From an uncultured Bacteroidota bacterium (GTDB taxonomy: Bacteria; Bacteroidota; Bacteroidia; Flavobacteriales; Flavobacteriaceae), in assembly GCA_902509675.1 (NCBI GenBank), contig CABWYN010000006.1, positions 1 through 50,182 on the forward strand: 50,182 nucleotides of DNA. Reading direction: 5' to 3'. Below are positions 19,682 to 27,907 of the stretch, piece by piece. Position 1 is the stretch's first letter. Each line of letters begins with the position of its first letter. The notes below the pieces were generated by a model. The model saw only the letters and a list, made by a program, of their open reading frames with translations, was not told where the DNA came from and ran no database searches. The position numbers and the translations under genes were made by a program.

Positions 19682-22600
19682 GTGAAATATAGATTTATTT
19701 TTATTTTTTTCATTTCACAAATTCTTTACTCTCAGCAATTTCGAAATATAAATAGCACCTCTGATTTAGGTCTTTACAGCGATAATAATGGAGTGGCTGT
19801 TGCTGATTATGATCAAGACGGAGATTTAGATGTATTTATTGTCTCAGTATATTCATCAGAAAACGAAGATTCCTGGAGTAGATTATTAGAAAACACAAAT
19901 AATGGTAATTTTATTGATGTAACCGAAAATTCAGGAATTAATCAAAATCTAAATCATGAGATAAACCTGATAAATTACGATGAAAACGGAAATCAAATTT
20001 TAGATGTATTAGAACATGGGGATAGACTTTCTGCTTCATGGGGTGACTTTAACAATGACGGATTTCCAGATCTTTTTTTAGGAAATGCTGTTCAAAGTGA
20101 GCTTTATAAAAATAACGGTAATGGTACCTTTTCAAACATAACTGAATCGGCCGGATTTGAAATTTCATGTAACGAATGCTACATCACAGGTGCTTTGTGG
20201 TTAGATTTTGATTTAGATGGCTATTTAGATATTTTCTTATCTGATTACAATTCTATATCTCCAAACAAATTATACAGAAATTCTGGAAATGAAACATTTG
20301 AGTTAATAGATATTAGTTCCGCTTCTGAAAATGCAAATAGTTTTTCAGCTATTCCTATGTATGTTAATGATGACATGTACCCAGATATTTACATAGCTAA
20401 TGATTTTGATGTTAATAATCAGCTACTAATAAATCAAAATGGGGAAGCTTTTGTTGAAATGGCTAGTGAATATGGAGTTGCTGATCCTTTTGACGGAATG
20501 GGAATTGCAACATGCGATTTTAACAATGATCTAAATTTAGATTTTTATGTAACTAATATCAAAGAAAACAGTTTGTATGCTAAAGACATTTTTGATGCTG
20601 AATATGACTACACAAATTTTTCTGAAGATTTAAATGTTTATGATGTTGGATGGTCATGGGGAGCTATTTTTTCAGATTATAATCACGATGGTTTTGAAGA
20701 TCTTTATGTGGCAAATGGGTTTTTTACTAATGAGAGAAATATTTATTTTGAAAATATTCAGGTTGGAAATAATAATACATTTGAGCAAGGTTTTTTTTCT
20801 GACAATGTTATGTCACTACAGCACACAAAGAGTAGGTCAGTAAATTCTTTTGACTATGATAATGACGGGGATCTCGACCTGATTTTTTCTATTTTTGATA
20901 ATGATTTAAATATGTGGGAGAACACATCTGTTGATAATCAGTATACTGACGAGATAATGGGTGCGTGGGTGAAATTCGATCTTGAGGGTTCAACTTCTAA
21001 TAAAGACGGGCTTGGGACGATTTTAGAGGTAGAATTTGAGGACGGAACCAAACAAATTAGACACTATAACGGTTCTGGCTACCAACATCAGTCTATCCAG
21101 TCTACCCATTTTGGTGGTGGAGATAATAATATGATCACTACCCTAAAGGTAAAATGGCCAAGTTCTGGAGAGGAAATATATTCTAATATTGAAATGAACT
21201 CAACCTATGAAATAATTGAGGGTCAAGGAATTCAATCTACCGATAATAATTCGTCAGTATTTATTTATGGATGTACTAATGAAAATTCCTGTAATTATGA
21301 TCAAAATGCCACTATAGATGACGGTTCATGCACCTATATAAATTCGCAAGAAATTCTAGGTCAAAATATTGCTCAGCCTCTGACAATATCCAGTTACAGT
21401 TATGTAGATAATTCAATCTTAGATTTTGAATGGAGTGTTGAAAACGGGAATATTATTTCAGGAAACGGTTCACAAGAAATAATTGTTCAGTGGGACATAG
21501 CTGAAATGGGTAGAATATCTCTAGTAGTTACCGATGAAAATTGTTCATCAAACGCAATAGAACTTGACGTTGAACTGGTATTATCTATATCTTCTGATGA
21601 ATACAATTTCTCCGTTGCAAGACTTTGGAACGAGGTTTTATTATACTCTATTAGAAATGATTTTGCTCGACCAACTGTACATGCAAGAAATTTATTTCAT
21701 GTAAGTGCAGCAATGTATGATGCTTGGGCTATTGTAAATAATATCGGAACCCCGTATTTAATCGGAAACTCTCTGAATGGTTTTAATACACAATTTTCAC
21801 AATTTTCAAACTCTGAGGATGAAGACATGAACAATATTAATGCAATTAGCTACGCAGCCTACAGATTAATAAAACATCGTTTTTCACAGTCTCCAGGTTA
21901 TGAAAAAATTGAACAAAAGTGTAATGCACTTATGAGCTTGTTAAATTTAGAAATTGATTTTCTTGATTCTTCAGAAAATAGTTATAATTCTTCGTCCCTT
22001 GGAAATTTCATTGCTGAAAAATATATTGGATATGGCATATTGGATGGTTCGAATGAACAATTCGACTATATAAATCAATATTACATGCCTGTAAATGACC
22101 CTATGGCGCCAATTTTTTCTGGAAATCCTGAACTTATAAATCCAAACAGGTGGCAGCCATTAACATTAGATGTTTTCGTTGATCAAAGTGGAAATATATT
22201 GTCCGAAACTACACCTGAATTTTTGGGAGCTGAATGGGGCAATGTTTGGCCATTTGGATTGAATAGCGATGATGTTTCTGAATTTGAAAGAGATGGGGAT
22301 GTATATAAGGTTTATCATGATCCAGGACCACCACCATTGATTGATGAAGACTCAGAAACAAATGAATTATTCACAGAAGCTTTCTCCATGGTTTCTGTAT
22401 GGGGGTCTCATTTAACCCCTCTGGATAATACGGTTTGGGATATTTCACCGAATTCTATTGGAAATATTGATAACAATACATATCCAGATGATTTTTCTGA
22501 ATATCTGTCATTTTATAATTATTTTGAAGGAAATGATTCGGGCCAAGGATATTCTTTAAATCCTATTACAAATCAACCATATGATATCCAAAATGTCAGA

Positions 22601-23707
22601 AGAGGTGACTATACAAGAGTTTTAGCTGAGTATTGGGCTGACGGACCAGATTCTGAGACCCCACCAGGACATTGGTTTGTATTGCTTAATTCCGTAAGTG
22701 ATAATCCTAATTTAGAGAAAAAATTCAAAGGTTTAGGTAACGAATTAACTGATTTGGAATGGGACGTTAAATCATACTTTATTCTTGGAGGTGTAATGCA
22801 TGATGTAGCTATCTCCGTTTGGGGTATAAAGGGTTGGTATGATTATATTAGGCCTATCTCCGCAATAAGATATTTTTCAGAAATGGGTCAAAGTTCAGAT
22901 CCAAGTTTAGAAAATTACAATGAAAATGGATTTAAATTGATTGATGGCTTGATTGAAGTTGTAGATGAAGGAGATTTATTAGCAGGAGATGAAAATGAAA
23001 ACGTGGGTAAAATTAAATTATTCACTTGGAAGGGTCATACATATGTTGAAAATACAGAAAATGATTTTGCTGGTGTAGGTTGGATTTTAGCAGAAAATTG
23101 GTGGCCATACCAAAGACCTACATTTGTAACTCCCAATTTTGCTGGCTATGTTTCTGGGCACTCAACATATTCTAGGGCAGCTGCAGAAATGCTTGAAAAC
23201 TTCACAGGTAGTCCATATTTTCCTGGTGGGTTGGAGATTTTTAAAGCTAAGCAAAATGACTTTTTGGTTTTTGAAGAAGGCCCAAGTCAAGATGTTGAAT
23301 TACAATGGGTTTCATATAAAGATGCTGCAGACCAATGTAGTTTGTCAAGAATTTGGGGTGGTATTCATCCCTACATTGACGATATTCCTGGCAGAAGGAT
23401 AGGGGATGTTATAGGAAATGAAAGTTTTGAATTTGGGGCTGAATATTTTGAAAATAATTTATCCACTGCTAATAACTTATTTAAAGACATTAAACTTCTC
23501 AAAAACCCTGTAAGAATTGGTGATGAGATTGTCTTAATCAATGTAACTGGAAGTGAAAACTTGATTTTATATAATTTAAATGGTCAGCAAATTTCATTTG
23601 ACTTTAGATATGATGATAACAATATATTTATCCCTACCAGTAATTTAAGTCAGGGAATATATATATTAAAATCAAATGAAATTAGTTTTAAGGTGATAGT
23701 GCATTAA
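19682..23707 (+). CDS. Secreted FG-GAP/UnbV protein fused to a vanadium-dependent haloperoxidase, with T9SS tail
   Basis: A 1341-aa protein with a GTG start and signal peptide ending near ILYSQ. Residues 40-400 hold FG-GAP/VCBS calcium loops (DYDQDGDLD, DFNNDGFPD, DFDLDGYLD, DYNHDGFED, DYDNDGDLD). An ASPIC/UnbV domain follows at about 430-515, a Cys-containing CTNENSCNYDQNATIDDGSC segment near 532 and a PKD-like stretch to about 640. Residues 645-1250 form a PAP2/haloperoxidase domain with the whole vanadate pocket: K1050 and R1057 (spacing 7), S1158-G1159-H1160, and R1223 and H1229 (spacing 6). The last 70 residues are a T9SS type A sorting domain. The family oxidises halides with hydrogen peroxide; halide choice is not readable. 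It should be outside the cell or on the surface. Confidence 0.9.
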   Translation: MKYRFIFIFFISQILYSQQFRNINSTSDLGLYSDNNGVAVADYDQDGDLDVFIVSVYSSENEDSWSRLLENTNNGNFIDVTENSGINQNLNHEINLINYDENGNQILDVLEHGDRLSASWGDFNNDGFPDLFLGNAVQSELYKNNGNGTFSNITESAGFEISCNECYITGALWLDFDLDGYLDIFLSDYNSISPNKLYRNSGNETFELIDISSASENANSFSAIPMYVNDDMYPDIYIANDFDVNNQLLINQNGEAFVEMASEYGVADPFDGMGIATCDFNNDLNLDFYVTNIKENSLYAKDIFDAEYDYTNFSEDLNVYDVGWSWGAIFSDYNHDGFEDLYVANGFFTNERNIYFENIQVGNNNTFEQGFFSDNVMSLQHTKSRSVNSFDYDNDGDLDLIFSIFDNDLNMWENTSVDNQYTDEIMGAWVKFDLEGSTSNKDGLGTILEVEFEDGTKQIRHYNGSGYQHQSIQSTHFGGGDNNMITTLKVKWPSSGEEIYSNIEMNSTYEIIEGQGIQSTDNNSSVFIYGCTNENSCNYDQNATIDDGSCTYINSQEILGQNIAQPLTISSYSYVDNSILDFEWSVENGNIISGNGSQEIIVQWDIAEMGRISLVVTDENCSSNAIELDVELVLSISSDEYNFSVARLWNEVLLYSIRNDFARPTVHARNLFHVSAAMYDAWAIVNNIGTPYLIGNSLNGFNTQFSQFSNSEDEDMNNINAISYAAYRLIKHRFSQSPGYEKIEQKCNALMSLLNLEIDFLDSSENSYNSSSLGNFIAEKYIGYGILDGSNEQFDYINQYYMPVNDPMAPIFSGNPELINPNRWQPLTLDVFVDQSGNILSETTPEFLGAEWGNVWPFGLNSDDVSEFERDGDVYKVYHDPGPPPLIDEDSETNELFTEAFSMVSVWGSHLTPLDNTVWDISPNSIGNIDNNTYPDDFSEYLSFYNYFEGNDSGQGYSLNPITNQPYDIQNVRRGDYTRVLAEYWADGPDSETPPGHWFVLLNSVSDNPNLEKKFKGLGNELTDLEWDVKSYFILGGVMHDVAISVWGIKGWYDYIRPISAIRYFSEMGQSSDPSLENYNENGFKLIDGLIEVVDEGDLLAGDENENVGKIKLFTWKGHTYVENTENDFAGVGWILAENWWPYQRPTFVTPNFAGYVSGHSTYSRAAAEMLENFTGSPYFPGGLEIFKAKQNDFLVFEEGPSQDVELQWVSYKDAADQCSLSRIWGGIHPYIDDIPGRRIGDVIGNESFEFGAEYFENNLSTANNLFKDIKLLKNPVRIGDEIVLINVTGSENLILYNLNGQQISFDFRYDDNNIFIPTSNLSQGIYILKSNEISFKVIVH

Positions 23708-23739: not shown

Positions 23740-23813
23740 GGCCTCGTAGCATAACTGAATAGTGCATCTGATTACGGCTCAGAAGGTTGGGGGTTTGAAT
23801 CCCTCCGAGGTCA
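23740..23813 (+). tRNA. tRNA-Arg (anticodon ACG)
   Basis: A 74-nt cloverleaf. The acceptor stem GGCCTCG pairs with CGAGGTC (one G-U). The anticodon stem TCTGA/TCAGA holds the loop TTACGGC with anticodon ACG. The T arm is GGGGG-TTTGAAT-CCCTC and the discriminator is A23813. CCA is not encoded. It starts 32 bp after the haloperoxidase stop. Its last 22 bp and the next 2 bp recur 3.3 kb downstream (27099-27123). The 374-bp stretch 23708-24081 holds this tRNA, its terminator, an AT-rich 9-bp inverted repeat (23912-23933) and the operator region of the next gene. Confidence 0.96.
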
Positions 23814-23815
23814 CA
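23791..23815 (+). repeat. Direct repeat, left copy: 3' end of tRNA-Arg (candidate att site)
   Basis: A 25-bp stretch covering the T arm and 3' acceptor strand of tRNA-Arg plus two flanking bases. It matches 27099-27123 in the same orientation at 24 of 25 positions; the one difference is C23805 against T27113. Site-specific integrases often use exactly this part of tRNA genes. Confidence 0.8.
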
Positions 23816-23816
23816 A

Positions 23817-23846
23817 AAAGGAATAGCTCTTTTGAGTTATTCCTTT
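23817..23846 (+). terminator. Rho-independent terminator after tRNA-Arg
   Basis: A 13-bp stem: AAAGGAATAGCTC pairs with GAGTTATTCCTTT (one G-U) around a TTTT loop. It starts four bases after the tRNA. The 3' arm ends in TTT and continues CTATT, so the T tract is short. Confidence 0.75.
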
Positions 23847-24002
23847 CTATTATCCATAATTTTCTCTTCAAAATTTACAATGTTTTTGTGAAATTCGTAG
23901 TATATTAATTCTTTTAATGATAAATCATTAAAAAACTAAACCTATGTTTATAAAATTCACATATTTAATTTATAAACATTAATAAATTCAAAAAAAAAGT
24001 AT

Positions 24003-24010
24003 TATTTTTG
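24003..24010 (+). promoter_or_regulatory. Candidate -7 promoter box of the surface-protein gene
   Basis: TATTTTTG matches TAnnTTTG, the Bacteroidota -7 element. No clear TTG box lies 18-20 bp upstream. Its position 13 bp before a perfect palindrome and 71 bp before the ATG makes it the best promoter candidate for the 938-aa gene. Confidence 0.45.
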
Positions 24011-24023
24011 CCATCATATTTTA

Positions 24024-24043
24024 TATCGAAAACGTTTTCGATA
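24024..24043. promoter_or_regulatory. LacI-family-type operator palindrome
   Basis: TATCGAAAACGTTTTCGATA is a perfect 20-bp palindrome with the central CG and AAAACG/CGTTTT half-sites typical of LacI/GalR-family operators. It lies just after the candidate -7 box (24003-24010), where a bound protein would block transcription, and 38 bp before the 938-aa gene. No LacI-type regulator gene is in this window. Confidence 0.65.
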
Positions 24044-24081
24044 AATACTTAAAATATTAATATTTCAAAAGTTTAAAAATT

Positions 24082-26898
24082 ATGAGATTCTTTTTAACCC
24101 TCTTTTTTACCTTATCAATAACATTCAATGCTTTTTCTCAAACAGCTGCTGCAATTGCTGACAACAGTGGAGGAGGAACTGCTTTAACTTTTCAGACTAC
24201 GGGTAATGCTTCATGGCCATACAAATTCAATGCTTCTCGTTGGGATAGTGGTAATTCAGTTTATGTTGTAAAAGATGGAAAGTCTTCTCAAAATGCTCAA
24301 ACTTTGAAAATTTACGTTACATCATTACCTGACGGTGGCGCCAATTATCGTACTTACAAAACAAATGTTAACAATACTGCTATTCTAGGGAACTCGACTG
24401 CCCTTGCTCTTGGATTAAACACAATGACAGTTTCTGCAGTTGCTTTTGATAGAACTGTTTTATTCCAATTTAGTAGCGGTGCTGTTGAATACAATGCAAT
24501 ATATTATAATAATAATGTTGGTGTAGATGATGGGGGAGCTACGATTCTGGATGGAGATATTAACACTACAGCATCACCAAGTATTTTTTCAACAACATCT
24601 TCTGGATCTTGGCCTCGTGCAATGACTGTAGTTAGCTCATCCGATGGAGCAACTAGTCAACTAGAACAAGTAATTAAGTTTAATGTTACACAGTTAGACG
24701 GAGATGAGGCTAATTACAGAGTCTATAAAACACTCGCTAATGGAAGCGGAAATAATGGCGCAACAACTGCACTTAGACTAGGACTTAATGAAATAACTGT
24801 TTCTGCAGTTGCTTTCGATAGAACTATAAAAATCCAATTTAGTGAAAGTAGTAATATAGCTTTAAGAGAAGTTTCGGTAAATAATTCCACTTCTGATGAT
24901 GTTGATTCATCGGTATTATTTGCTGATACAGGTAATGCTTCATGGCCAAGAGTGCTCACCGCTGTTACAGAATCTCAGCGTACAACAAGTCAGGCAGCAC
25001 AAACGTTGAATATTTTTATCACAAAATTACCAGGAGCCGGTGCAAATTACAGAAAATACATAACCTATCGTGGTGGAGCCAGCGAGTTTACTGGTACAGC
25101 CAAGCTTACCCTAGGACCAAATACAATAACCCAAGCTTCTGTTGATTTTAATCGAACCCTCAAATGGCAATTTAGTAACAACGAAATTGAATTTAGCTCA
25201 ATTACCTTGAATGATGCTGTTTTTTGGGATGGTAGTACAGATACTGATTGGGATACTGCTGCGAATTGGAGTAATTCAACAGTACCAACATCATCTACAG
25301 ATGTTTTAATTCGTGGAGGCGCCACTAATTATCCCATAGCTACTAATGTAACAGTAGATGCAGGTCAGTCAATAAATATTTCTAAGGGAGGCTCTTTAAA
25401 AATAAATGGTAATTTAACCAATAACGGTACGATTTTTCTAGATTCTGACAGTAACGAATTTGCATCAATTATTGTTGGAGGCACATCTTCAGGAAACATA
25501 ACTTACAGTAGATATGTTAATCTAGCGGGTATCGTTGGAGATGGTTCTGAGTGGGATTTAATTGGCTCACCTGTAGATGGACAATCTATTAGCGCTTTTG
25601 CTACAACAAATACTGTAGTAACGGGAACTAATACTGTAAGTGGAACTAATACAACTGCAACTTTAGCAACTAATGGTTCAGCATATGCTGTAGGAGAATA
25701 TGATAATAGTACTGATACATGGACAAACTTTACAACAGGTACTGTTGCAGGCGCAGGTGATTTTGATATAGGTAAAGGATATCAAATGGGAAGTGTGAGT
25801 AGTACTTTATCTAGATTACATTTTACGGGTACAATTGCTACTAGTGATCAATTACAGGCAATTATCGATAATGATGCAGCAAACTCAGGTTCAGGTAGAA
25901 GATGGTCTCTTATTGCAAACCCTTTTCCGTCGTTCTTAAATGCTAATTCTAATGCTGATGGTTCTAATAATTTTCTGACAGTAAATGCATCTAAAATACA
26001 TGATAGTTACGAAGCAATTTATGGGTATGACGGAGATGGCTCAGGATATACAGTGTATAATCAATCCACTGCTGCAACATATATAGCTCCTGGTCAAGGG
26101 TTTTTTGTTGCATCAGCCAGTACAAGCTCTGATGATGTAACTTTCAGTGAAGCAATGCAAACCATAACAGGAACCGATGATTTTGTTCTTGGAGATATTA
26201 TGGATGATGATTTTGAGTTAATTCTTAAACTTTATGAAGGAGATACTGAAATTGATTACACTAGGTTTTATTTTAAAGATGGTCTAAACCTTAATTTAGA
26301 TCCTGGTTATGATGCTGGTCATTTCAATCAAGAAGCCTCTCTAATGTCAAGATTAATAGAAGATGATGAAGGGATTGGTTTTGTAATTAATGCAATGGGT
26401 ATAGAGAATGTAAATAATGCCATTATTCCACTTGAAATTAACAGAGAAGCTGGTTCTGATTTTAGAATTAGTATTGACACCTTCGATATTTATGCGGGAA
26501 CAAATGTTTATATAGAAGATAATCAAAACGGTACAATGACCTTATTAAATGAAGAGGACTTTATTCTTTCTCCAGAAAGTAACTTAAGTGATGCCGGTAG
26601 ATTCTTTGTTCACTTAACTCAAGATACATTCTCTAACGAAGAGCCTGTAGAAACAAATCACTTAAATGCATTTAAGTTTGATACAAATAACTTTATTACC
26701 ATTGAGGGATTAGCTTCATTGGATAATCAAATAAATGTAAGCTTATACAATATCATTGGAAAAGAAGTATTATCTACAGTTTTAGCTAATAATACAAATA
26801 CACAAACTGTATCTACCTTAGGATTATCTAAAGGAATTTATATAATCAAACTAGAATATGGAAATAGCATATTAACTAAGAAACTTATTATTAAATAA
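24082..26898 (+). CDS. T9SS-secreted surface protein with three N-terminal repeats
   Basis: A 938-aa protein with a signal peptide ending near FNAFSQ. Three homologous blocks begin near residues 41, 174 and 284; each contains (G/S)xxSWP, a LP/LDGxxANYRxY segment and xVxFxRTxxxQFS. Two of them share almost identical DNA around TTTCTGCAGTTGCTTT. Next is a WDGSTDTDWDTAANW segment near 386 with beta-helix-like sequence, then a long Asp/Asn/Thr-rich region. A T9SS type A sorting domain ends the protein (INVSLYNIIGKEVL ... KGIYIIKLEYG ... KKLIIK). No catalytic motif is visible; carbohydrate or particle binding is only a guess. The gene is preceded by a LacI-type palindrome and followed after 6 bp by a 57-aa peptide gene, all between tRNA-Arg repeats. 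Confidence 0.88.
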   Translation: MRFFLTLFFTLSITFNAFSQTAAAIADNSGGGTALTFQTTGNASWPYKFNASRWDSGNSVYVVKDGKSSQNAQTLKIYVTSLPDGGANYRTYKTNVNNTAILGNSTALALGLNTMTVSAVAFDRTVLFQFSSGAVEYNAIYYNNNVGVDDGGATILDGDINTTASPSIFSTTSSGSWPRAMTVVSSSDGATSQLEQVIKFNVTQLDGDEANYRVYKTLANGSGNNGATTALRLGLNEITVSAVAFDRTIKIQFSESSNIALREVSVNNSTSDDVDSSVLFADTGNASWPRVLTAVTESQRTTSQAAQTLNIFITKLPGAGANYRKYITYRGGASEFTGTAKLTLGPNTITQASVDFNRTLKWQFSNNEIEFSSITLNDAVFWDGSTDTDWDTAANWSNSTVPTSSTDVLIRGGATNYPIATNVTVDAGQSINISKGGSLKINGNLTNNGTIFLDSDSNEFASIIVGGTSSGNITYSRYVNLAGIVGDGSEWDLIGSPVDGQSISAFATTNTVVTGTNTVSGTNTTATLATNGSAYAVGEYDNSTDTWTNFTTGTVAGAGDFDIGKGYQMGSVSSTLSRLHFTGTIATSDQLQAIIDNDAANSGSGRRWSLIANPFPSFLNANSNADGSNNFLTVNASKIHDSYEAIYGYDGDGSGYTVYNQSTAATYIAPGQGFFVASASTSSDDVTFSEAMQTITGTDDFVLGDIMDDDFELILKLYEGDTEIDYTRFYFKDGLNLNLDPGYDAGHFNQEASLMSRLIEDDEGIGFVINAMGIENVNNAIIPLEINREAGSDFRISIDTFDIYAGTNVYIEDNQNGTMTLLNEEDFILSPESNLSDAGRFFVHLTQDTFSNEEPVETNHLNAFKFDTNNFITIEGLASLDNQINVSLYNIIGKEVLSTVLANNTNTQTVSTLGLSKGIYIIKLEYGNSILTKKLIIK

Positions 26899-26904
26899 TA
26901 ACAT

Positions 26905-27078
26905 ATGAAAAAAGAAAATAAAAATATCCTTAATCTCAAGCGCTCTGGTATAACAAGAAAGGATGCTATAAAGAAAATGGGTAAATATGCAGCGTTAACT
27001 GCTATTGGAACTTTTACTATTCTTAACCCAAAGAAAGCACAAGCACAATCTGTTGCACCAAATCCTGGTGGATGGTAA
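26905..27078 (+). CDS. 57-aa secreted-peptide precursor with Tat-like leader
   Basis: ATG at 26905 opens 57 codons ending at TAA 27076-27078. It begins MKKENKNILNLKRSGITRKD and continues AIKKMGKYAALTAIGTFTIL, NPKKAQAQ, then SVAPNPGGW. The order is a basic N-region with a weak twin-arginine-like TRKDAIK, a hydrophobic core, a possible A-Q-A or A-Q signal peptidase site, and only about nine residues left as mature peptide. It follows the 938-aa gene by 6 bp, so the two are likely cotranscribed. I have a general memory of similar short proteins after T9SS genes in marine flavobacteria, but no function is known to me. The 301-bp stretch 26899-27199 holds this gene, the tRNA fragment and a terminator. 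Confidence 0.65.
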   Translation: MKKENKNILNLKRSGITRKDAIKKMGKYAALTAIGTFTILNPKKAQAQSVAPNPGGW

Positions 27079-27098
27079 TTTAAACATCAAAAGTTTAA

Positions 27099-27123
27099 GG
27101 GTTTGAATCCCTTCGAGGTCACA
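27099..27123 (+). repeat. Direct repeat, right copy: orphan tRNA-Arg 3' end
   Basis: The bases GGGTTTGAATCCCT then TCGAGGTCACA repeat the T arm and 3' acceptor strand of the tRNA-Arg at 23740-23813 with one mismatch. No 5' tRNA half precedes it, so it is not a functional tRNA gene. It is followed five bases later by its own hairpin terminator. Confidence 0.8.
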
Positions 27124-27128
27124 TCTGT

Positions 27129-27165
27129 AAAGACTCGCTTTTAGTAGTGGGTCTTTATTTTTTTT
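27129..27165 (+). terminator. Rho-independent terminator after the tRNA-Arg fragment
   Basis: AAAGACTCGC (27129-27138) pairs with GTGGGTCTTT (27147-27156) using two G-U pairs around an 8-nt loop. An A and a run of nine Ts follow. It would end the transcript of the 938-aa gene and the 57-aa peptide gene. Confidence 0.75.
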
Positions 27166-27199: not shown

Positions 27200-27907
27200 T
27201 TAGAATGAGTCGTATTTGCTATTCCATATACTTTCACTAAAGTTTCTTCTGGTTAAAAAGAAGATGTAGAAAAATATAAAAATAAAGCCTTTTACAAGAA
27301 ATAGGAACAAAATAAAAACTTCGGAACCTGTTAGATCGGGAAAAATTAACTTACCTGTGAGGGCAAATATAACACTGACTAAAATTGAAAATATTGTTAG
27401 ATTATCAATATTTTTAAAAGGTAGAACCAATAATTTTCTAAATAAATTAAATTCCTTTCCCCATTTGTGCACTAGATAATAATAATCATTACCAATTGGG
27501 ACAAATAAAATTGGGTCATCAGGACTTTTTATCTTAAATAACTTGGACGGTGCCATGATCATAAAATTATTCAATTTTGTATTATGATTTTTTTCTAGAT
27601 CCGAAATGATATTGGTTATATTTTTTGGATAATCTCCTTTGAAAAGATTTGAATCTAAAAATCTCAATCTAAATTTTACGCATGTCTTTTTGATTGTATT
27701 TTTATGGAAAATATTTTTAGTTTCCATTTTATCAAAATCTAATTGATTGAACTCATTTGAATTTTTCCTATTCAACCTATCATTTATGCTCTTTTTATCA
27801 GACTCACTTTTGGACCAAATATTTTTAATTGTGGATAGAAGTTCGGCGGAACTAATATCTTTATTCCTTTCTTTTAAGAGCTCATCGACTAAATTAACTT
27901 TTATCAT
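27200..27907 (-). CDS. Conserved flavobacterial membrane-associated protein, unknown
   Basis: A 235-aa protein. The N-terminal about 155 residues are soluble and contain CVKFRLRFLDSNLFKGDYP, then APSKLFKIKSPDDPILFVPI and NDYYYLVHKWG. Two membrane segments follow (about 167-188 and 197-219), and the tail ends FSESIWNSKY. I remember this pattern from conserved hypothetical proteins of Flavobacteriaceae, with no assigned function. No catalytic motif is evident. It lies just outside the tRNA-Arg repeat region and is oriented towards it; the SRPBCC-like gene is 53 bp upstream on the same strand. Confidence 0.75.
   Translation of the reverse strand: MIKVNLVDELLKERNKDISSAELLSTIKNIWSKSESDKKSINDRLNRKNSNEFNQLDFDKMETKNIFHKNTIKKTCVKFRLRFLDSNLFKGDYPKNITNIISDLEKNHNTKLNNFMIMAPSKLFKIKSPDDPILFVPIGNDYYYLVHKWGKEFNLFRKLLVLPFKNIDNLTIFSILVSVIFALTGKLIFPDLTGSEVFILFLFLVKGFIFIFFYIFFLTRRNFSESIWNSKYDSF

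Follow-up and report, generated by a model that had tools for sequence, protein, structure and literature searches.

What process has left a second, partial copy of a tRNA gene 3.3 kb downstream of the intact one, with two protein-coding genes enclosed between them? This question is raised by a stretch of 50,182 nucleotides (hereafter the window) from an uncultured marine bacterium of the Flavobacteriaceae, which is contig C6 (CABWYN010000006.1, positions 1 to 50,182) of an assembly (GCA_902509675.1) of 1.08 Mb in 53 contigs, 56.5% complete. Its forward strand carries an intact tRNA-Arg(ACG) gene (23740-23815, comprising the gene called by ARAGORN at 23740-23814 and one further 3' base), followed by an insert (23816-27086) and then by a displaced 3' remnant of the same tRNA (27087-27123). 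We consider it likely, with a probability of about 0.8, that the 3.3 kb constitute an element that was inserted into tRNA-Arg(ACG) by site-specific recombination and whose copy in the window is now decayed.

The preliminary description of this DNA had noted a 25-mer of the tRNA 3' end that occurs again, identically oriented and with a single mismatch (24/25), at 27099-27123. The repeat is real, as no match appeared in 100 shuffles with up to three mismatches allowed. It had been described as the T arm and acceptor end, both of which are present, but the remnant is longer: BLAST widens the second copy to 27087-27123, that is, to tRNA positions 40-76 (32/37 identical, compared to 20/37 at the next best position of the window; E 1.6e-6 for the genome), and it reaches about 12 bases beyond the start first given, into the 3' strand of the anticodon stem. 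Of these additional 12 bases eight match, a level attained at 0.27% of window positions. At all five differences the remnant has A or T where the tRNA has G or C, the direction that drift should take in AT-rich DNA. BLAST found no 5' tRNA half upstream of the second copy, as had been claimed, and a search of the incomplete assembly for other copies of the site returned only the tRNA and its remnant. The assertion that a different terminator follows each copy stood for the distal one, where a terminator was detected by the terminator scan (27127-27158, forward strand); it is of the type found directly 3' of tRNA-Arg in several relatives and is probably native. The proximal terminator-like hairpin (23817-23846, forward strand) was read by eye and was not flagged by the scan.

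In order to see how this locus is organized elsewhere, the window's genome was compared to 20 relatives of the same genus (numbered with the prefix G; 21 genomes in all). A whole or partial tRNA-Arg was present in 17 of the 21, the window's included, and gene maps of the locus were obtained for the window and 16 relatives. In these maps the tRNA lies between an upstream gene for a FG-GAP/haloperoxidase-like protein of 1333-1341 aa, kept in 10 of the 17 mapped genomes, and a downstream gene of family F3 (230-240 aa), seen downstream of the tRNA in 14, window included. The corresponding native flanks of the window are a 1341-aa FG-GAP/haloperoxidase-like protein of the type IX secretion system (T9SS; family F15, 19682-23707, forward strand) and a 235-aa F3 protein (27200-27907, reverse strand), which adjoins tRNA-Arg in five relatives. 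No F3 is in view in the three other maps, as the G001 and G006 contigs end and G003 is without it. Among the 14 sites, five are tight, with 45-89 bp between the tRNA and F3 (G002, G007, G008, G014 and G016), and nine are occupied by 0.6-4.8 kb; in the window, G012 and G013 the intervening stretch closes with a displaced 3' tRNA piece beside F3. Because the spacing is tight in five relatives, the 3.3-kb stretch is an insertion relative to them. An empty site, proposed as a check from the outset, is thereby found, and the relatives do not all carry the same genes at unchanged spacing, which had been named as the outcome speaking against insertion. It had further been expected that the tRNA of an empty site would directly precede the terminator type found distally in the window; this is so in G002 and G008, but G007, G014 and G016 have other hairpins there. 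The same type also stands directly 3' of the tRNA in G009 and G019 and, more diverged, in G020. As it likewise follows the element-borne tRNA halves of the downstream elements in G012 and G013, the terminator alone proves little.

The relatives also indicate where in the tRNA the crossover takes place. Displaced tRNA-Arg pieces are found in five of them, as 5' pieces (positions 1-38 to 1-42) upstream of the tRNA in G006, G010, G013 and G014, and as 3' pieces (32-76) downstream of it in G012 and G013 (the G006 contig stops before any intact tRNA). The pieces overlap at positions 32-42, the anticodon loop and its edge, and since the borders of both kinds fall there, the crossover is placed in or beside the anticodon loop. 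A crossover in the T arm or at the 3' end, as in the preliminary description, was set aside on these borders and because the window remnant reaches position 40, an argument of moderate, not strong, force; of the earlier proposal of an insertion at tRNA-Arg by a tyrosine recombinase, the insertion is thus supported and the crossover point displaced. In G013 the two native halves seem to have been shifted, to 2.2 kb upstream and 3.1 kb downstream, so that each half of its working tRNA was probably supplied by an element. The 5' piece of G010 matches the tRNA of G017 in full (39/39) and departs at 2 of 39 positions from the working tRNA of G010 itself, the pattern that an element importing another allele would leave. 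Five of the six displaced pieces in the relatives are identical to the common tRNA of the genus over 38-45 bases. When tRNA-Arg was used as query against 149 genomes of the family, the matches listed were mostly whole tRNA genes.

Both ends are visible in five elements of the relatives. These measure 1935-3103 bp, contain no integrase genes and differ in cargo, annotated with Pfam and PADLOC as a trypsin-like protein (G014), a PQQ-domain T9SS protein (G010), a CoiA-like protein with a 387-aa protein (G013, upstream element), a DndB-like protein with a PNKP-type phosphatase (G013, downstream element) and a GmrSD-type protein (G012, downstream element). The ends are shared between elements of unrelated cargo: G010 and G014 agree at 93.6% over 110 bp on the left and 74.7% over 166 bp on the right, and G012 and G013, in their downstream elements, at 72% over 154 bp on the right. 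They carry arm-like words, repeated directly in one direction at a spacing of 12 bp, namely GTTAGGCAC in G014, GTTGTACCC and GGTGACACA in the upstream and downstream elements of G013, CGTGACACA in the downstream element of G012, and GTTGTAAAC, common to G003, G012 and G018. All nine letters are repeated at 11 of the 15 ends compared; the imperfect repeats are at the left ends in G014 (8 of nine), G010 (6), G012 downstream (7) and G003 downstream (8), the second left arm copy of G012 being degenerate. One word serves both ends in four of the five whole elements, while the left and right words of G010 differ. Arm pairs at both ends without an integrase are a property of the elements in G010, G012, G013 (two) and G014. 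Pairs are also present just upstream of the tRNA, without a 5' piece, in G003, G012 and G018, where the upstream sequence amounts to less than 1 kb in the G003 and G018 contigs and about 4 kb in G012. A scan of 820,799 bp of loci (some contigs included twice) for exact, GC-containing 9-mers repeated at this spacing yielded 37 places in total: in loci L044-L059, 11 of them mark tRNA-Arg element ends and 9 have other positions; the other loci contribute 5 that repeat these ends, 3 that precede sdhA and 9 at other positions.

These observations are consistent with the following course of events. An element would have entered tRNA-Arg(ACG), most likely at the anticodon loop and presumably by means of a tyrosine recombinase, supplying a new 3' tRNA half together with its own terminator, so that the 3' half of the intact gene would be element-derived and the original one displaced to 27087-27123. 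The same tRNA is a hot spot that has been struck repeatedly in the genus, on both sides, by arm-flanked elements of 1.9-3.1 kb with one or two genes of differing kind, mostly without integrase. Decay would then have removed the arm sites, and any integrase, from the window's copy; the tRNA half that it displaced may have undergone drift, and its cargo, consisting of a T9SS surface protein and a small secreted peptide, may have stayed as a resident gene pair.

Several points weigh against this reading. The insert holds no arm pair, and no arm repeats at 12-bp spacing were found in it: its best score is 4.9 under a model trained on the same 15 known ends that it then scored, 14 of which reach 17.1-30.3 and the fifteenth 7.2, and unrelated window positions reach 15.2. 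Neither of its two ends matched the 15 other ends in a plus-strand similarity search (E 1e-3). Since arms and shared ends are both lacking, it is the position and the tRNA remnant that place the insert in this class. The first tRNA position represented in the remnant is 40 instead of 32. G012 has an arm pair upstream of its tRNA, yet no 5' piece occurs in the roughly 4 kb present there. In G009, G017, G019 and G020, and on the downstream side of G010 and G018, extra genes occur at this place and no tRNA piece was found, and DNA can thus also enter the locus without a tRNA trace, or the trace can be lost. Finally, the 56.5%-complete assembly contains no cognate integrase. We regard the insert as most likely a decayed, immobile member of the class, which of the three options first offered (non-autonomous element, decayed island, remnant of a tandem tRNA duplication) is the one that fits best.

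The insert contains, as stated from the beginning, one surface-protein gene and one peptide gene, neither of them an integrase according to open reading frame (ORF) and domain searches. The 938-aa surface protein (24082-26898, forward strand) ends in a T9SS tail, and its C-terminal module (about 377-937) is common to other genes of the genus, occurring in several genes per genome in many of the genomes. The 57-aa peptide gene (26905-27078, forward strand; product ..PKKAQAQSVAPNPGGW) has its stop codon 8 bases from the tRNA remnant. The peptide gave no match in Pfam or NCBIfam at E 1; its family is present in 13 of the 21 genomes, window's included, and typically directly 3' of such surface-protein genes (24 of 31 genus matches). 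Its members (L060-L089) have about 55 aa, a signal-like N terminus, a putative AQA|Q cleavage site judged by eye and a predicted short P/G-rich tail, often ending in GW. In G011, G014, G016 and G020 several contigs per genome stop at, or close to, one particular codon of the surface-protein family, an indication that its paralogues within one genome have almost identical 3' parts. Upstream of the surface-protein gene stands a perfect 18-bp palindrome, ATCGAAAACGTTTTCGAT (24025-24042), with a similar site in G001 that matches at 88-90% on both strands; by resemblance it is a putative LacI-type operator, the label given to it earlier. The first 266 bp of the insert have no more than short matches to other genus sequences, in 11 of 21 genomes and with E 4e-6 at best. 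Surface-protein and peptide pairs also adjoin tRNA-Ser(TGA) in G010 and G012, and in G015 a peptide gene adjoins tRNA-Ser(TGA) at a contig end and a pair has a tRNA-Arg(TCT)-Pro-Ser cluster in its vicinity; these loci (L167, L169, L170 and L171) yielded no tRNA fragment.

The nature of this gene pair bears on a variant of the proposed history, which we hold tentatively and below even odds: a mini-element of the downstream class would have been inserted first, and the surface-protein and peptide pair would later have taken the place of its cargo and right end through recombination with a paralogous pair of the genome. The pair belongs to a multi-copy family, and the contig ends in G011, G014, G016 and G020 are read as near-identical repeats; moreover, the 8 bases between stop codon and remnant leave no room for the right end of about 190 bp present in G012 and G013. 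An inverted pair stands beside the same tRNA in G010, with no 3' piece found, and a further pair in G001, whose contig ends inside it. No intermediate has been seen, however, and the left end, too, is without arms. That the insert is still mobile, as a non-autonomous element with diverged attachment (att) sites, dependent in trans on an integrase gene missing from the assembly, is improbable. Elements lacking an integrase but having good arms do occur at this tRNA, but the insert is without the arm-type repeats of the relatives and without any shared end, so that the suggestion of continued mobility is not supported for the window's copy; its remnant has moreover drifted at 5 of 37 positions, when five of the six pieces in the relatives match the common genus tRNA and the sixth, of G010, that of G017 (39/39). 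Least likely of all is a tandem tRNA duplication whose second copy lost its 5' half, with genes coming between later by ordinary recombination, since the lack of arm sites beside the remnant and the gain of genes in relatives without a detected tRNA scar are outweighed by the absence of two complete tRNA-Arg(ACG) copies from all 17 genus genomes with a match, by displaced halves that in five relatives border other inserts, upstream as well as downstream of the tRNA, and by the tight spacing in five relatives.

The window's assembly contains one PF00589 gene, on another contig, encoding a 304-aa protein which from its size we take to be XerC/D-like. Among the relatives, the partial element of G006 bears a partial integrase of 495 aa with Arm and SAM-like domains in Pfam and without a match to a catalytic domain (E 0.01); 15 other genomes of the genus have distant relatives (19-25%). 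At the end of this element two copies of GTTAGGCAC and one of GTCAGGCAC are spaced by 12 and 22. As GTTAGGCAC thus occurs both at the integrase-bearing end of G006 and in the integrase-less element of G014, these sequences suggest that the latter kind is moved in trans. A virus source was also considered, for which the searches were not useful: viral_contigs gave 0 matches to the exact tRNA halves and none to the G006 integrase, four arm-word patterns hit 4, 23, 11 and 10 stretches (48 loci), and in these no relative of four genus integrases was detected by phmmer at E 1e-4. In 19 of the 48 loci the neighbouring ORFs were inspected; several matches lie within repetitive coding sequence, and only L220 and L255 appeared, by eye, to be near integrase-like ORFs. 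The insertion mode is not confined to tRNA-Arg, since in G011 tRNA-Asn(GTT) has a displaced piece (26-75, 100%) at a distance of 8.7 kb, adjoined by an integrase. Beside tRNA-Asn in G013 (contig C8; L127:4200-13400), an integrase is accompanied by an array of small secreted-protein genes that share 5' DNA and are interspersed with copies of about 30 bp of the 3' end of the integrase gene. By eye, such an integrase 3' end is also seen at the right ends of the tRNA-Arg elements of G010 and G014, and 3' fragments of the G013 tRNA-Asn integrase gene are found in G002, G003, G007, G011, G016 and G018.

A 771-aa protein whose gene is preceded by arm words was dropped as a candidate trans-acting integrase, as Pfam identifies it as SdhA with an N-terminal extension. 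The extension, of about 105 residues, is present in 13 of the 21 genus genomes and in G024 of another genus among 100 genomes searched, with one further weak match in G049 (L177:13806-16121 in G007; also L187-L198 and L200); G008, of the same genus, has an SdhA without it. It matches the integrase family Arm-DNA-bind_5 at 20.6 bits (E 6e-4), just under the Pfam cut-off of 22.6 bits. Words of the type GTGTTACA were read by eye, some copies with one mismatch, in all 12 genus promoters of extension-bearing sdhA that were inspected: two pairs in nine, one pair in G010 and G015 (200 bp each) and a pair and a single word in G020. Of the twelve closest pairs listed, six give a finite ratio of nonsynonymous to synonymous substitution rates (dN/dS) for the extension, ranging over 0.015-0.089; dS is below 1 only for G012/G013 (dN/dS 0.089) and G010/G015 (0.029). 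These low ratios indicate that the extension is kept by purifying selection. PutA is an enzyme with a DNA-binding domain and with sites in its own promoter, and the arm domain of SdhA with matching promoter words resembles it. The sequences make an enzyme-repressor fusion possible, and self-regulation, by this analogy, would be a guess. No paper on such a fusion was found in a literature search.

Taken further than we would readily defend, the locus may be pictured as a two-sided docking port, integron-like in effect, in which mini-elements enter the anticodon loop of tRNA-Arg(ACG) from either side, each with a tRNA half, an 'address' at each end (a word repeated at 12-bp spacing) and exchangeable cargo (defence, nuclease, protease or surface-protein genes), while a changing pool of integrases, recognizing the address, moves them in trans; the window would then hold a retired unit. 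The arm words would offer a testable code linking an integrase to the element it moves, and the tRNA of G013, with both halves apparently from mobile DNA, a clean system in which to study the tolerance of an essential gene to being replaced again and again.

Neither displaced tRNA fragments nor anticodon-loop sites are new; both are established in the excerpted account of Islander (PMC4383910), in which an intact target tRNA gene and a displaced fragment in the same orientation mark the ends of an island, and the anticodon loop is a known sub-site. The window's insert is bounded in the same manner and has an empty counterpart at 5 of 14 sites, but Islander, by the same excerpt, requires an integrase gene inside, which neither this insert nor the five whole elements possess. 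Islands with 5' fragments are also a minority there (159, compared to 3760 with 3' fragments), while 5' fragments occur in four genomes here. Cis-mobilizable elements (CIMEs) are described, in the portion of PMC5704250 drawn upon, as having lost integration and transfer genes while keeping their attachment ends, and as arising by decay of integrative and conjugative (ICE) or integrative and mobilizable elements (IME). The mini-elements of G010, G012, G013 and G014 likewise keep their ends without an integrase; they differ in that the five measure 1.9-3.1 kb and vary in cargo while their ends stay alike, and no conjugation genes were seen among their few genes. In the window's insert integration and transfer genes are absent and may once have been present; the tRNA core lies on both sides of it, and no recognisable arm sites were found. 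Tycheposons, as far as they are described in the passages used (PMC10872708, PMC11389934), are tRNA-associated cargo elements of ocean bacteria with tyrosine recombinases, 4-200 kb in size and recombinase-bearing, compared to 1.9-3.1 kb and mostly no recombinase in the flavobacterium. Integron cassette arrays without integrase (clusters of attC sites lacking integron-integrases, CALINs), thought in the text cited to be moved in trans (PMC11389934), are similar by description as integrase-less gene units, and differ in their site, which here is the anticodon loop of a tRNA. A literature search met no description of this locus, which does not show it to be unpublished. What is unusual in comparison is that elements of gene size, lacking an integrase and with ends coded by repeats, flank a single tRNA on either side. 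Finders requiring an integrase, like Islander, would miss such units, which, if common in small-genome ocean bacteria, may help to explain the transfer of single defence or surface genes.

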